From: Desulfurococcaceae archaeon
GTDB lineage: Archaea > Thermoproteota > Thermoprotei_A > Sulfolobales > Desulfurococcaceae
Assembly: GCA_023269765.1 (NCBI GenBank)
Contig: JAGDWH010000003.1
Location: forward strand, 1-20,189
Direction of reading: 5' to 3'
DNA: 20,189 nucleotides
The notes beneath the pieces were generated by a model. That model ran no database searches. It saw only the letters and a program-made list of their open reading frames with translations, and was not told where the DNA came from. Made by a program: the position numbers and the translations under genes. Position 1 is the first letter of the stretch. Each line of letters begins with the position of its first letter. Positions 15,309 through 20,189 of this stretch are shown piece after piece.

Positions 15309-15599
15309 TTACTCCTTAATTTTCAGCTTTATTTCAATTATGCTGACTCTGGCCTCTCTGCCTTGCGGGTTAGTGAGTGTTTGGCTGCCAATGTCTATCT
15401 TTTCTATTTCAACCTTGCCTGGTAGGAACCTGTTTCTGACGATTTCTACAGCGTCTACCGCCTTGCTTATCGCCCTGCCCCTAGCTTTGACATATATTTC
15501 CTTTACTCCCTGGTGTACTAGCGTCAATATTGCTATTACGTAGTTCATTACTTGCTTCTTTCCTACTAGTACGGTGTTTGGAGCTTGTACTTGTGACAC
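15309..15599 (-). CDS. albA: Alba chromatin protein (Alba1)
   Basis: A 96-residue DNA/RNA-binding chromatin protein of the Alba family. [50 protein letters not shown] matches crenarchaeal Alba1 closely; K14/K15 correspond to the DNA-contact lysine that is acetylated in Sulfolobus. C-terminal strand IIEIKLKI completes the fold. The start is GTG 15599, preceded by AAGGGAT as a plausible ribosome binding site; TGTAAATTAA (15641-15650) supplies a TATA element on the - strand. The gene is divergent from reverse gyrase, and a second Alba gene lies at the other end of reverse gyrase. Confidence 0.95.
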
Positions 15600-15749: not shown

Positions 15750-18700
15750 TTGAGCACTATTGTGCCGATATACGAGGACCCTCTCCACGGTCATCAGCAC
15801 GGCTTAGCTAAAGCCGATGTTATGCCCCACGTTGAAGCGCTTAGATCTAGTGAGCGCGAATTTGAAGCTTTTTTCGAGAAAGCTACGTGTGGGTTTAAAC
15901 CCTGGGGCGCTCAGAGGACTTGGCTTAAGCGGCTTTTACAAGGCGATAATGTGGTTTTAACAGCACCTACGGGCCTTGGTAAAACGACTTTGCTCGTGGT
16001 TTACGCCTTATATGCGGCAGGAAGGGGTAAAAAGATCCTTTATATTGCTCCAACGAGGCCCCTGCAAGAGCAGACTTACAGTAGGATGCTCAGCTACTTA
16101 AGGAACCTAGAGCTCGGCAACGTTAGAATAGTCTACTACTCCTCCAACATGAGCGCGAAAAAGCGTTGCGAAGTACTAGAGCAAATAAGCGCCTGCGATT
16201 TCGACATCTTGGTCGTAACTAGTAACTTTGTGCTGAAAAGGTTTGACTCTCTGTCTCGATGCCATGTAGACGTTATAATTGTAGATGACGTAGATAGCCT
16301 CATAAAGAGCGAGAAAAGTGTGTACAGCCTACTCAAGCTCCTCGGCTATACCGAAAAGGCAATCGAGTTGGCCAAAAAGAGAGTCAACCTCCTCTGGAAG
16401 ATACTCGCTGGCAAGGCGTTGGGTAAGCCCATAGAAGAGCTCGTCAAGGAATATGTGAGCATAGATATAGAGCTAGAGAAGGAGCTATCTTCAATTAGTA
16501 GGAGGCAGTTGATCGTAGCATCAGCTACCGGTAGAGCTCGCGGTTCGGCGGGCAGGCTTCTCAGGGATCTCTTAAGAATAGATGTAGCGGGTATAGCAAT
16601 ATACGGACGCGACGTAACTGACAGCTATCTACTAGTCGCAGATCCCAGAGAAATGGCTCAACAAGTCAGCTCACTTATTTTCAAAATTGGTAAGGGCTGC
16701 ATAATCTACATTTCACCGCACCACCCACTCAGAGAAGACATTAACAGGGTTGTTGAGCTCGTTGCAAGCGAACTGGAAAAGCGTGGTTTTAATGTGGGCA
16801 GAGCAGGCGCAAAGGACGTCGCTAAATTCATAGATGGAAGGCTTGACGTGCTAATTGGCACAGCAGCCTATTACGGCTCAAGCGTAAGGGGCATTGACGC
16901 GCCAAAACACGCACGATACGCCATTTTCCTCGGAGTGCCCCTCATATCAATACCCCTCGAAGCTTTTCTAGCAAACATGAACTTCATGGCTAGAACGCTG
17001 CTGGAGCTCTACTCAAAGACGGGGAACCATGGTTTTAGAGATGCCGCTGCTAAAATTAGGAAGAAGTCTCTAGAGCTGGCACCTGCTGAGAAGAGGCTTC
17101 TGAAGTATTGCTTAATAGGCAAAATACCTCAAGAAGTCCTGGCAGCTTCTCAGAAGCTAATGTCAATCTTAAGCGAGGTGAGGGAGGTCTACAATGTTGT
17201 ACTAAGTAGCACTAAAGCCTTACTTGACCAACACGGCGTTTTTAACGTGGGTACTATAACACTCGTGCGGGATTTCAGTGGCAGGTACGTAGCACTCGTG
17301 CCCGACGTCATGACTTATATTCAGGCCTCTGGAAGAGTTAGCAGGTTCCTCGGTAATAGAATGACTCACGGACTCGCCATTATAGTAGAGTTCAAAGCCC
17401 TTTCAAACCTCGTAAAATCCTTGGAAGCCAGAATGCGCTGGTTTGCTAAGGAGTTTTCAATCACAGAGCTGGGTAGAGTGGATCTCGACGCGGAAATAAG
17501 CATGATTCAGGAAAGTAGGAACAATGAAAGCCGTCGTGGCTTAAACCACAAATCTGTTCTCGTTGTTGTAGAGTCCCCTACAAAGGCCAAGACTATAGCG
17601 AGGTTTTTTGGAAAGCCTACTTCTAGGAAAATTGGAGGCGTAAAGGTCTACTCTATTCCCGCGAAAATAGGTGAAGAGGTAGTAGAGTTTAATATTGTTG
17701 CTACTCGTGGACACATATATGACTTAACGACTGCTGATAAAGGACTTTACGGTGTCTACTTTAACCAGGGCAGTATTAACCCGGTTTACGCGACCCTAAA
17801 GAAGTGCAGAATTTGCGGGGCCCAGTTCACAGACCTCGATACCTGCCCAAGGTGCGGGAGCCGCTTCTACTTCGACTCTAAAGCCATTATCAGCGTCTTA
17901 CAGAAGCTTGCACTAGAAGTAGACGAAGTCTACGTGGCCACAGACCCTGATATCGAGGGCGAAAAAATAGCCTACGACGTGTACAATTGTATTAGCGCAT
18001 TAAATGGCCGCATAAAGAGAGTTGAACTACATGAAATAACCCTGAGTGAGTTTTTGAAAAGAATTAGCAGGGCAAGGGATCTAGACCTAAGGCTTGTTGA
18101 GGCCGAAATATATAGAAGGGTGCTTGATAGGCTCATTGGGTTTAGTCTCAGCAAAAAGTTGCAGTCGGTTTATAGCAGGAAGTACCTGGGAGCCGGGCGA
18201 GTTCAGACGCCAGTTCTCGGGCTAATAATAGACCGCTACAGGGAATACCTTGCAAATAGGTGCAGGAAAGTAGTTATAGAAATTGGGGGACCTCTCGAAC
18301 TCTCTATCTCGGCGTGCATTGAAGAATCAAATAAAGGCTTACTAGACGTGCTGAGAGGCGCTAAGCAGGTAGTGTTCTTCAAGGAGTCTGAAATAGTAGA
18401 GCAAATCTCACCAAAGCCCCCCTACACAACCGATGAAATCCTTTTTGACGCGTCTAGAAAGGGTTTTGGAGCTGCCGAGGTCATGAGAATTCTTCAAGAG
18501 CTCTTTGAAGCAGGCCTAATAACATATCATAGAACAGACTGCACTTACGTAAGTGATGCAGGTATTTCAGTGGCTCGCGAGTACTTGGGTACTAAAGGTT
18601 ACTTAAGGCTATTTAAGCCAAGCCACTGGGGTGAGCCGGGATCCCACGAGGCTATTAGACCTGTTTACCCCCTAGACTCGGAAGACTTACTTAAAGCTAT

Positions 18701-19385
18701 AGACGAAGGAGTGCTCGATGTTGCAATACCAATTACCAGTAAGCACTTGAAGCTGTACGATATGATTTTCAAAAGATTTATTGCAAGCCAGATGAGGTCT
18801 TTCAAGGCTCTTAGGGCTATCTACAGAGTATTGGTTTCGAATATAGAAATCGCCAAGGTCTCGCTCTATTTGAACATCCTGGAAGAAGGATTTAATGTTA
18901 TTACGACTGTGAAGACGTATCCACAAGTCGCGGACTTGGATACCTTTACTGCTACTATTCGCTCTCTGACTTTGAAAAACTCGAGTAAAACGCCTCTCTA
19001 TAGGGAAGGCGATGTTGTAATGCTAATGAAGAAATATGGCATTGGGCGGCCCAGCACTTATGCCAAGACTATTGAGACCATAAAGAGGCACGGCTACGTT
19101 GTTGAAAGCCGCATACTCAAAAAACTCGTGCCAACAAAGAGAGGCATAGCGGTGTACGAGTTTCTCAAGACGAACTACCCGGAGTTAGTGTCGATTGAGT
19201 TGACCAGGAAGATGGAGACCACAATAGACCTAATAGTCTCTGGTAAAATCACAGGATACGATGCTCTGCTAGAATTACTCGCAGAAATCAAAGCTATAGG
19301 TCTGCTCGGCGAGGAGCTACCTTCTCTTAATCTTTATCAGTATATAGGGCCTTATTCTACCTTCTACAGAGCTGCTGCCAATTGA
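15750..19385 (+). CDS. rgy: Reverse gyrase
   Basis: The hallmark enzyme of hyperthermophiles; it introduces positive supercoils using ATP. The 1211 residues fuse a superfamily 2 helicase-like half to a type IA topoisomerase. The helicase part has PWGAQRTW, Walker A APTGLGKTT (72-80), DDVD (179-182), SATGRARG and YIQASGRVSR. The topoisomerase part starts near 602 with the TOPRIM Glu (VVVESPTKAKTIARFFGKP, E608), then a zinc finger C686-x2-C689-x9-C699-x2-C702, the acidic triad DPDIE (D732, D734, E736), and the active Tyr926 in GLITYHRTDC. The usual N-terminal zinc finger is missing; the start region has HGHQHG instead. TTG 15750 (or GTG 15762) is the start; an in-frame stop at 15708 excludes a longer N terminus. 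The 3' end overlaps alba2 by 69 bases. Confidence 0.97.
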   Translation: MSTIVPIYEDPLHGHQHGLAKADVMPHVEALRSSEREFEAFFEKATCGFKPWGAQRTWLKRLLQGDNVVLTAPTGLGKTTLLVVYALYAAGRGKKILYIAPTRPLQEQTYSRMLSYLRNLELGNVRIVYYSSNMSAKKRCEVLEQISACDFDILVVTSNFVLKRFDSLSRCHVDVIIVDDVDSLIKSEKSVYSLLKLLGYTEKAIELAKKRVNLLWKILAGKALGKPIEELVKEYVSIDIELEKELSSISRRQLIVASATGRARGSAGRLLRDLLRIDVAGIAIYGRDVTDSYLLVADPREMAQQVSSLIFKIGKGCIIYISPHHPLREDINRVVELVASELEKRGFNVGRAGAKDVAKFIDGRLDVLIGTAAYYGSSVRGIDAPKHARYAIFLGVPLISIPLEAFLANMNFMARTLLELYSKTGNHGFRDAAAKIRKKSLELAPAEKRLLKYCLIGKIPQEVLAASQKLMSILSEVREVYNVVLSSTKALLDQHGVFNVGTITLVRDFSGRYVALVPDVMTYIQASGRVSRFLGNRMTHGLAIIVEFKALSNLVKSLEARMRWFAKEFSITELGRVDLDAEISMIQESRNNESRRGLNHKSVLVVVESPTKAKTIARFFGKPTSRKIGGVKVYSIPAKIGEEVVEFNIVATRGHIYDLTTADKGLYGVYFNQGSINPVYATLKKCRICGAQFTDLDTCPRCGSRFYFDSKAIISVLQKLALEVDEVYVATDPDIEGEKIAYDVYNCISALNGRIKRVELHEITLSEFLKRISRARDLDLRLVEAEIYRRVLDRLIGFSLSKKLQSVYSRKYLGAGRVQTPVLGLIIDRYREYLANRCRKVVIEIGGPLELSISACIEESNKGLLDVLRGAKQVVFFKESEIVEQISPKPPYTTDEILFDASRKGFGAAEVMRILQELFEAGLITYHRTDCTYVSDAGISVAREYLGTKGYLRLFKPSHWGEPGSHEAIRPVYPLDSEDLLKAIDEGVLDVAIPITSKHLKLYDMIFKRFIASQMRSFKALRAIYRVLVSNIEIAKVSLYLNILEEGFNVITTVKTYPQVADLDTFTATIRSLTLKNSSKTPLYREGDVVMLMKKYGIGRPSTYAKTIETIKRHGYVVESRILKKLVPTKRGIAVYEFLKTNYPELVSIELTRKMETTIDLIVSGKITGYDALLELLAEIKAIGLLGEELPSLNLYQYIGPYSTFYRAAAN

Positions 19386-19583
19386 GACGTCAAGTAGCTC
19401 CACGCTTTCTCCCATCCTTGACATAACTGCGTTGTAGAGATCAACGGCTTTGCTTATGAACCGCCCCTCTCCTTTAAGTACTACTACTGGTGCTTCTTGA
19501 AATAAAACTGCAATTTCAATTAAGTAATCAGTTATCTTCCTTTTCCCAACTACTATTACTCTCTCACTAGCAGTACTATCCAT
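19317..19583 (-). CDS. Second Alba family protein (Alba2)
   Basis: An 88-residue Alba paralogue, clearly diverged from the 96-residue one in this window. RVIVVGKRKITDYLIEIAVLFQEAPVVVLKGEGRFISKAVDLYNAVMSRM shows the Alba fold, with K14/R15/K16 at the DNA-contact position, and the C terminus ends IRPYILIKIKRR. Alba2 proteins form heterodimers with Alba1 and change how it coats DNA or RNA. The ATG has GGTGA (19593-19597 on this strand) 9 bases upstream and a TATA TTTTATTAA at 19620-19628. Its last 69 bases are antisense to the end of reverse gyrase. It is transcribed away from the candidate origin. Confidence 0.93.
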   Translation of the reverse strand: MDSTASERVIVVGKRKITDYLIEIAVLFQEAPVVVLKGEGRFISKAVDLYNAVMSRMGESVELLDVSIGSSSVEGRIRPYILIKIKRR

Positions 19584-19592
19584 GCGACGCGT

Positions 19593-19628
19593 TCACCGCC
19601 CAATAGGGAATGTTAAGACTTAATAAAA
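19593..19628 (-). promoter_or_regulatory. Promoter and ribosome binding site of alba2
   Basis: On the - strand TTTTATTAA (19620-19628) is followed by GGTGA (19593-19597), 9 bases before ATG 19583. The promoter abuts the leftmost origin-box-like element (19655-19676). Confidence 0.55.
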
Positions 19629-19654
19629 TAAGCTTTCGCGGGAACGGGTTTGCG

Positions 19655-19676
19655 AGAAACCAGTGGTTTCAGGGGT
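19655..19676 (+). repeat. ORB-like element 1
   Basis: A perfect palindrome, GAAACCA-G-TGGTTTC (19656-19670), is followed by AGGGGT (19671-19676). The dyad-to-G-string spacer is about two bases shorter than in the other copies, so this copy may be weaker or divergent. Confidence 0.5.
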
Positions 19677-19710
19677 CTGCTTCCACTAGACACCGCTAGT
19701 TCTGGGCAGA
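19676..19710. repeat. Hairpin-forming element with a dyad half
   Basis: TCTGC (19676-19680) pairs with GCAGA (19706-19710), then CCA with TGG and CTAG with CTAG around the loop ACACCG. It includes TTCCACTAGA, the dyad half of the ORB-like elements, without a G-string next to it. Confidence 0.4.
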
Positions 19711-19746
19711 TCCGCCACTCAATCATCCGTGGCAACCTATTGTTCC

Positions 19747-19768
19747 ACCCCTTTACTTCTAGTGGAAA
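19747..19768 (-). repeat. ORB-like element 2
   Basis: Read on the - strand it is the dyad TTTCCACTAGAAG followed by TAAA and GGGGT, 22 bases. It matches element 3 at 19 of 22 positions. The G-string points away from the AT-rich core. Confidence 0.65.
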
Positions 19769-19785
19769 TCAAGTGCCAAGATCCT

Positions 19786-19807
19786 ACCCCTATACTTCCA
19801 GTGGAAA
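19786..19807 (-). repeat. ORB-like element 3
   Basis: Read on the - strand it is TTTCCACTGGAAG, then TATA and GGGGT, 22 bases, exactly 39 bases from element 2. The TTTCCACTGGAA core is the closest match to the known archaeal mini-ORB dyad. Confidence 0.7.
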
Positions 19808-19810
19808 CAT

Positions 19811-19829
19811 GCCAGTGGAAGTCTCGGCG
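19811..19829 (+). repeat. Degenerate ORB-like half next to element 3
   Basis: GCCAGTGGAAGTCTCGGCG repeats the dyad half CCAGTGGAA of element 3 (on the + strand) 14 bases further on, with only a GG where the G-string would be. ACTTCCA (19794-19800) and TGGAAGT can also pair as a 7-bp stem. Confidence 0.4.
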
Positions 19830-19830
19830 A

Positions 19831-19980
19831 AGATTGATGTGTTTGGATATTTAAGTTTGTATAAAGACGTAGAAGCCTCTTATAGCACTTCTACTACTAC
19901 AAGAATTGCGAAATAATCACAACATGTACCATAAGTGCTGTAAATGACACTCTAAAACAAATTGAATAGTCTAGTTGAAA
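19831..19980. other. AT-rich core, candidate duplex-unwinding element
   Basis: By hand count 47 of 150 bases are G or C (31%), clearly below the neighbouring genes. The poorest parts are 19831-19860 (8 of 30) and 19921-19980 (18 of 60). It is bounded on both sides by ORB-like elements, as in known archaeal origins. Confidence 0.55.
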
Positions 19981-19988
19981 CAAGGGGT
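19967..19988 (+). repeat. ORB-like element 4
   Basis: TAGTTGAAACAAGGGGT lies on the + strand, with a dyad half (TTGAAAC) and the G-string GGGGT; the spacer is one base shorter than in elements 2, 3 and 5. It is inverted relative to elements 2 and 3 across the AT-rich core. Confidence 0.55.
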
Positions 19989-20032
19989 AGGCGCTAAAAA
20001 GAGAAAGAAGCTTGTCGGAAACCGCTAGTTCC

Positions 20033-20054
20033 ACCCCTCCTTTTCAAGTGGAGC
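20033..20054 (-). repeat. ORB-like element 5
   Basis: Read on the - strand it is GCTCCACTTGAAAAGGAGGGGT. Spacing of dyad and G-string equals that of elements 2 and 3. It lies about 36 bases before the RNase P RNA TATA box. Confidence 0.6.
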
Positions 20055-20089
20055 GACTTATCCTGCATTTGGGCCGTGCAGCTTATAGC

Positions 20090-20097
20090 TTATAATA
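20090..20097 (+). promoter_or_regulatory. TATA box of the RNase P RNA gene
   Basis: TTATAATA lies about 25-30 bases before the predicted 5' end of the RNase P RNA, the normal archaeal spacing. Confidence 0.6.
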
Positions 20098-20119
20098 GTC
20101 CCTTTAGAGAACTACCGAC

Positions 20120-20189
20120 AGTGGCGGGGCCGGGCACCCCGCTCACGCCCCGCAAGGGGTGAGGAAACTCCGTGCACCCCGCGGCAGCG
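20120..20189 (+). ncRNA. rnpB: RNase P RNA, 5' part, cut by window end
   Basis: This is the catalytic RNA that removes the 5' leader of pre-tRNAs. The universal conserved region I is seen as GAGGAAACTCCG (20161-20172), with GTGCACCCC and GGCAGCG following as in archaeal type A RNase P RNAs. Before it, CACCCC (20135-20140) pairs with GGGGTG (20156-20161) as the P3-like stem, and the GC-rich GGCGGGGCCGGGC forms the start of P1/P2. The exact 5' end is estimated from the TATA box; the 3' part lies beyond the window. Confidence 0.85.

Follow-up and report, generated by a model that had tools for sequence, protein, structure and literature searches.

According to reviews, a replicator and the gene of its initiator are usually linked. 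A position of orc1-1 next to oriC1 is common but not required, and it is absent at Ori1 of A. pernix. The Ori1 interval is published as 444,909-445,231, and A. pernix Orc1-1 is reported to bind four Ori1 origin recognition boxes (ORBs) and to make an AT-rich region sensitive to P1 nuclease (PMC8287685); the second A. pernix origin is described as WhiP-dependent (PMC10769869). In Sulfolobus islandicus, the element ucm is reported to be essential at oriC1: substitutions overlapping it left no detectable oriC1 replication, and the ucm oligonucleotides contain ATTATACAAAC, the reverse complement of GTTTGTATAAT (PMC12141716).

We compared these systems with a stretch of 20,189 nucleotides from a Desulfurococcaceae archaeon (contig JAGDWH010000003.1; hereafter the window), for which a preliminary description had proposed a chromosomal origin between alba2 and rnpB, away from any visible orc1/cdc6 gene. 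Both neighbours were named correctly. The 88-aa ORF of alba2 (19317..19583, minus strand) matches PF01918 with E 1.5e-9, and its transcription leads away from the origin; it overlaps the reverse gyrase gene (15750-19385, plus strand) by 69 bases, 3' end to 3' end. The 5' end of rnpB, the gene for RNase P RNA, occupies 20126..20189 on the plus strand and matches positions 1-63 of the 288 in RF00373 (21.8 bits, E 2.7e-4), a score below the gathering score because the gene is cut by the window end. Further genes of the window encode Cdc48, a FEN1/XPG-type nuclease, an XPB-like helicase, and a second Alba protein. The reverse gyrase gene is flanked by the two Alba-family genes, both on the minus strand (15309-15599 and 19317-19583), and two alba homologues about 4 kb apart are also found in most of the 38 genomes with an alba match in the GTDB family of a close relative, genome G006 (below, the family). 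As had been stated, the window contains no visible orc1/cdc6 gene: the 36 Cdc6 proteins used as queries match only the AAA domain inside the Cdc48 gene (717-1769).

As in the described A. pernix Ori1, an AT-rich region of the window is flanked left and right by ORBs; the inner two face each other at Ori1 and probably do so in the window, where the right one is degenerate. In both cases rnpB adjoins the array, at a distance of about 90 bp in A. pernix (445322-445647). There, too, orc1-1 is far from the origin (331.4-332.6 kb versus 444.9 kb for Ori1, about 112 kb). The published ORBs of Ori1 number four; the window has five elements, of which one is degenerate and another has its G-string inverted. 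With 2 mismatches in 11 positions, the ucm-like site in the Ori1 core is matched to the Sulfolobus ucm no better than 9% of shuffles, and neither alba2 nor reverse gyrase was detected up to 1.5 kb from Ori1. Sulfolobus oriC1 resembles the window in the reported order ORB2-core-ORB3 with ucm midway (PMC12141716), but orc1-1 adjoins the origin there. The Sulfolobus oriC2 and oriC3 are likewise chromosomal archaeal origins carrying ucm, but they are described with mini-ORBs or none and with the initiators Orc1-3 and WhiP, whereas the window has full ORBs with a G-string (PMC4010727). Since the place and the elements are those of A. pernix Ori1 and the array occurs at most of the rnpB loci fetched from the family, we conclude with high confidence that the array at 19666-20054 between alba2 and rnpB serves the chromosome as an Orc1-1-class replication origin (oriC1), located in a place orthologous to A. 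pernix Ori1, and thus an origin of an already known kind. The ORBs, the core, ucm, their conservation, and the synteny on which this assignment rests were directly observed, as was an Orc1-1 orthologue in the closest relative searched.

The pattern TTCCASTNGAANNNNNGGGGT occurs in the window without mismatches at 19747-19767 and 19786-19806 and with one mismatch at 20033-20053; at up to three mismatches it has seven matches, compared with 0.74 expected, and none of 100 shuffles contained as many. The published common ORB motif of Ori-Finder 2, TCCA[CG]T[TG]GAAA[TC][GA]AAGGGGT (PMC4164010), selects at up to three mismatches exactly three minus-strand sites in the window (0.02 expected), with two mismatches each. 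A profile trained without the window scored the strong minus-strand ORBs at 31.7, 23.6, and 31.8 bits, while 200 simulated 20-kb windows gave a maximum of 19.8 bits and a mean best score of 9.9 bits. The three minus-strand copies of the preliminary description (19747-19768, 19786-19807, and 20033-20054) are thus real by the pattern, the published motif, and the profile alike. Its two plus-strand copies (19655-19676 and 19967-19988) find no support in the form proposed; neither matches TTCCASTNGAANNNNNGGGGT at up to three mismatches.

The profile built from relatives places five elements around the AT-rich core, starting at 19666(-), 19742(-), 19781(-), 19968(+, degenerate), and 20028(-). Element 1 (19666..19692, minus strand) is ORB-like, with the inverted G-string CCCCT in place of GGGGT, and scores 18.7 bits in the profile trained without the window; it has the position of the first element in relatives such as L097 and L101 and replaces the previously proposed plus-strand copy near 19655. 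ORB 2 (19742..19768, minus strand, 31.7 bits), the left inner ORB 3 (19781..19807, minus strand, 23.6 bits), and the outer ORB 5 (20028..20054, minus strand, 31.8 bits) are the sites that match the published motif. The right inner ORB 4 (19968..19994, plus strand) is degenerate, with a spacer one base short and 9.5 bits when the window is left out of training; it occupies the position of the right inner ORB of relatives, but its score is no better than that of the best chance site in 20 kb, and it is weak when taken alone. The inner pair of the window combines a strong left and a degenerate right ORB; clear facing inner pairs are seen in relatives such as L097, L098, and L102. Beside ORB 3, two dyads overlap in a palindrome lacking the G-string (19795..19821, plus strand; 17.0 bits on the plus and 9.3 on the minus strand), which is absent from the same place in the tabulated relatives, except for a palindrome in L102.

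The inverted G-string, CCCGT or CCCCT for GGGGT, recurs at outer positions of arrays, at 19666-19692 in the window and upstream of alba2 in L098, L101, L107, and L114. Such ORB-like sites may be bound by the second Orc1/Cdc6 paralogue or by another protein. In L093-L102 and the window, outer ORBs mostly have the end GGGGTRGAAC, which together with the leading GTTCCA gives inverted ends, and inner ORBs mostly have other endings, such as GGGGTGGGGG.

The AT-rich core, a candidate duplex unwinding element, extends over 19808..19967 with 36% GC compared with 46% in the window. The AT-richness described earlier is borne out, but the value of about 31% GC for a 150-base segment is not, the figures being 36% for 19808-19967 and 33% for 19840-19989; in relatives, the core has 17-40% GC. 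Within the core, the ucm-like sequence GTTTGTATAAA (19855..19865, plus strand) agrees with the Sulfolobus ucm at 10 of 11 positions, with one mismatch. A match of this quality is not rare in shuffles of the whole 20 kb (24 of 100), but it is rare in shuffles of the core (0.2%). TTTGTATA is present on one strand in 22 of the 25 cores examined between facing ORBs, the exceptions being L249, L255, and L260. Tandem double ucm elements, 16 or 13 bases apart, were observed in the family origins L286, L289, L291, and L306.

Genome-wide counts were made in the genomes of relatives: D. mucosus (G009), S. hellenicus (G027), and genomes that we take to be S. marinus (G028), Thermosphaera aggregans (G032), and Thermogladius (G029), among others. 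At up to one mismatch, the 13-base pattern GTTTGTATAATGA occurs once in the whole genomes of G032 and G033, in each case at the origin. In G008 the origin carries an exact copy and a near copy, and four further near copies are found at other places; of the two exact copies in D. mucosus one lies at the origin, and a single near copy lies away from it. The Staphylothermus genomes G027 and G028 contain 6 and 11 exact copies, respectively, with one at the origin in each, and the four Desulfurococcus- and Thermosphaera-like genomes contain from 0 to 2. Finally, there is one near copy in G029 and there are four in G025, none at the origin, although a shorter ucm pattern does find ucm inside the G029 and G025 arrays. 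The idea that ucm is exclusive to the origin in the family was rejected, being nearly true for G008, G009, G032, and G033 and false for Staphylothermus. The genome-wide role of ucm may differ between family members.

The array was followed through the relatives from each of its neighbours. A contig scan with a single reverse gyrase sequence gave no match; an alignment of 26 sequences did, and 80 loci were kept from 571 relatives. Seven of these (L001, L003, L004, L009, L010, L014, and L015) have at least two ORBs at up to two mismatches just downstream of reverse gyrase, followed by rnpB in all seven. Among the 40 genomes searched in the family, 38 have alba2 homologues; the upstream sides of the 30 loci fetched, together with the window, yielded 85 ORB profile sites of at least 10 bits versus 0.8 in shuffles, a count that is not independent, because these very regions had served to refine the profile. 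Starting from rnpB, which was matched in 32 of the 40 genomes and fetched at 30 loci, we searched up to 1.5 kb from the gene for ORB clusters, defined as at least two ORBs of at least 13 bits within 600 bp. Such a cluster is present at 26 of the 30 rnpB loci, in 24 cases with ucm inside; this same array beside rnpB, together with the proven A. pernix Ori1, supports the earlier reading of the locus as a chromosomal origin. The 17 genomes of this set that had contributed training sites to the profile all have the cluster, as do nine of the other 13; ucm was no part of the training. Among the loci that missed, G023 and G025 do have the array with ucm, at about 3 and 2 kb from rnpB, respectively, and those of G026 and G036 are cut short by contig ends. 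The clusters of G039 and G040 are without ucm by the pattern used. The 100 background stretches sampled from G008, G009, G029, and G032 (1.84 Mb in all, none over the origin) contain 28 single sites of at least 13 bits and no clusters. In the relatives, clusters are thus present at this locus and absent from the sampled background, which bears on a condition that the preliminary description had named as evidence against an origin, the occurrence of the element at many unrelated sites.

An array between two divergent genes could touch both promoters, and its elements might accordingly be operators through which Orc1/Cdc6 or another protein regulates alba2 and rnpB, with no origin involved. The comparison of relatives makes this extremely improbable. 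Staphylothermus, G014, G039, and G040 keep the array and rnpB without alba2, and for this reason alba2 and reverse gyrase were also ruled out as its conserved partners. Thermogladius-like genomes have alba2 interposed between rnpB and the array, and distances of 3 and 2 kb separate the array from rnpB in G023 and G025, respectively. Moreover, in having a central ucm and inner ORBs that face each other, the arrays match proven origins, and putative AT-rich promoter-like stretches of both genes, recognized by eye at about 19617-19635 and 20085-20100, lie outside the array.

In the closest relative searched (G037), an Orc1-1 orthologue was found: this Orc1-1-type protein matches 2V1U, which we take to be the Cdc6 homologue ORC1 of A. 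pernix, with E 2.5e-116 and 2QBY_A with E 3.3e-115; the second Cdc6 protein of G037 is nearer to 1FNN. An origin beside cdc6 was considered for the family and rejected, as none of 36 cdc6 loci has an ORB cluster and the single sites of at least 10 bits number five, versus 3.8 in shuffles. In five complete relatives (G009, G008, G032, G029, and G028, taken as circular), both cdc6 genes are 127-282 kb from the origin, and the orc1-1 copy is 127-228 kb from it.

GC skew was sampled in the same five complete relatives, following a check suggested in the preliminary description, and the outcome is mixed. In D. mucosus, the best skew switch is 52 kb from the locus, and the second switch is roughly opposite to it on the chromosome. 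The switch of G029 is 40 kb off the locus but ranks lower, with 15% of positions scoring as well; this share is 20% in G032, 45% in G008, and 65% in G028, the last two genomes not fitting. The combined p over the five relatives is 0.12, which is not significant, with clear support in one of five. The permutation p of 0.001 for D. mucosus was not accepted as proof of an origin, because it ignores the correlation of neighbouring stretches and because two of the five genomes disagree with it. For G008, sampling places the skew switch nearer to a cdc6 gene than to the array, as might be expected if the ORB array were real but formed a dormant origin or a cluster titrating the initiator, with replication starting elsewhere; a dormant origin has been described in haloarchaea, as has an ORB cluster for which titration of Cdc6 was proposed. 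We regard this as very unlikely, given that the 36 cdc6 loci are devoid of ORB clusters and that the layout, kept across the family together with ucm, is shared with Sulfolobus oriC1 and with Ori1 of A. pernix, which is active.

Described origins served as positive controls for the searches. The ORB matrix finds three sites of at least 10 bits at A. pernix Ori1, at 444986(-), 445147(+), and 445196(+), compared with the four published. In the sequence-model search of A. pernix (G065), the top site, at 1,573,456 (E 0.29), is outside the Ori1 interval, and the runner-up, at 445,197 (E 0.44), is inside it. A genome presumed to be Aeropyrum camini (G107) has the same arrangement by rnpB, and there the origin site is again the second-best model match. 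These second places count against the assignment of the window, as do its degenerate right inner ORB and the skew of G008 and G028. The family-trained profile also detects arrays upstream of cdc6 in L266, L269, L276, and L290. In G078, presumably S. acidocaldarius, ORBs are located at 579406, 579453, and 579604 and ucm at 579514, with the cdc6 start within about 55 bp. In four loci of other families (L250, L252, L254, and L255), facing ORB pairs surround cores of 16-21% GC, and rnpB, cdc6, alba2, and reverse gyrase are not found within the fetched flanks of up to 1.5 kb on each side. Judged by their sequences, these loci are candidate origins with other neighbours.

The ORB sequence model was run on 197 genomes of the order, at least 104 of which have a match at E up to 0.05, and linkage was counted in the 41 genomes with an ORB pair among the matches listed, 10 from the family and 31 from other families. 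All 10 family genomes among these matches have rnpB within 10 kb of the ORB pair, and none has orc1-1 within 2 kb; seven of them are drafts with orc1-1 on another contig, and G008, G009, and G035 carry it on the same contig at a great distance. For the other families among the matches listed, 17 of the 25 genomes in which rnpB could be placed have it within 10 kb, two have it farther along the same contig, and six on another contig. For orc1-1, 13 of 22 genomes have the gene within 2 kb, two have it farther off, and seven on another contig; the sole reason why G060 is counted as far is that its record, if circular, is cut at that point. Both genes are at these distances in 12 genomes of other families among the matches listed, and in these Sulfolobus oriC1-type cases rnpB is 2-8 kb away. 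The linkage of oriC1 with rnpB is thus seen in the counts among the matches listed and in A. pernix. It is doubtful, though conceivable, that rnpB rather than the initiator gene is the lasting partner of oriC1 in this archaeal order and that the pairing is functional. If it were, selection would hold the replicator and rnpB together, and orc1-1 would be free to lie elsewhere. As a speculation on the reason, the strongly transcribed rnpB could help to open or time the origin, or it could gain from being copied first.

On the analogy of A. pernix and Sulfolobus, the initiator Orc1-1, whose gene lies elsewhere on the chromosome, would bind the ORBs with fixed polarity and help to open the AT-rich core. 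The MCM helicase would be recruited to the core, and a ucm-binding protein at the central ucm would help MCM to depart. On the same analogy, replication would then initiate bidirectionally, proceeding one way through alba2 and reverse gyrase and the other way through rnpB.

In the open-licence literature searched (titles and abstract openings), no mapped origin of the Desulfurococcaceae and no mention of rnpB beside oriC1 were found. DoriC is described as a collection of computed origin predictions for complete archaeal genomes (PMC4164010), so individual sites may be predicted already. The present analysis predicts a specific Desulfurococcaceae origin, very probably the site where the copying of the chromosome of this heat-loving archaeon starts, and provides a simple rule for finding its counterparts: ORBs around ucm, adjoining rnpB. 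It extends the range of ucm beyond the Sulfolobales and Aeropyrum, and in the family members where the distance is measurable, the replicator and the initiator gene are apart.
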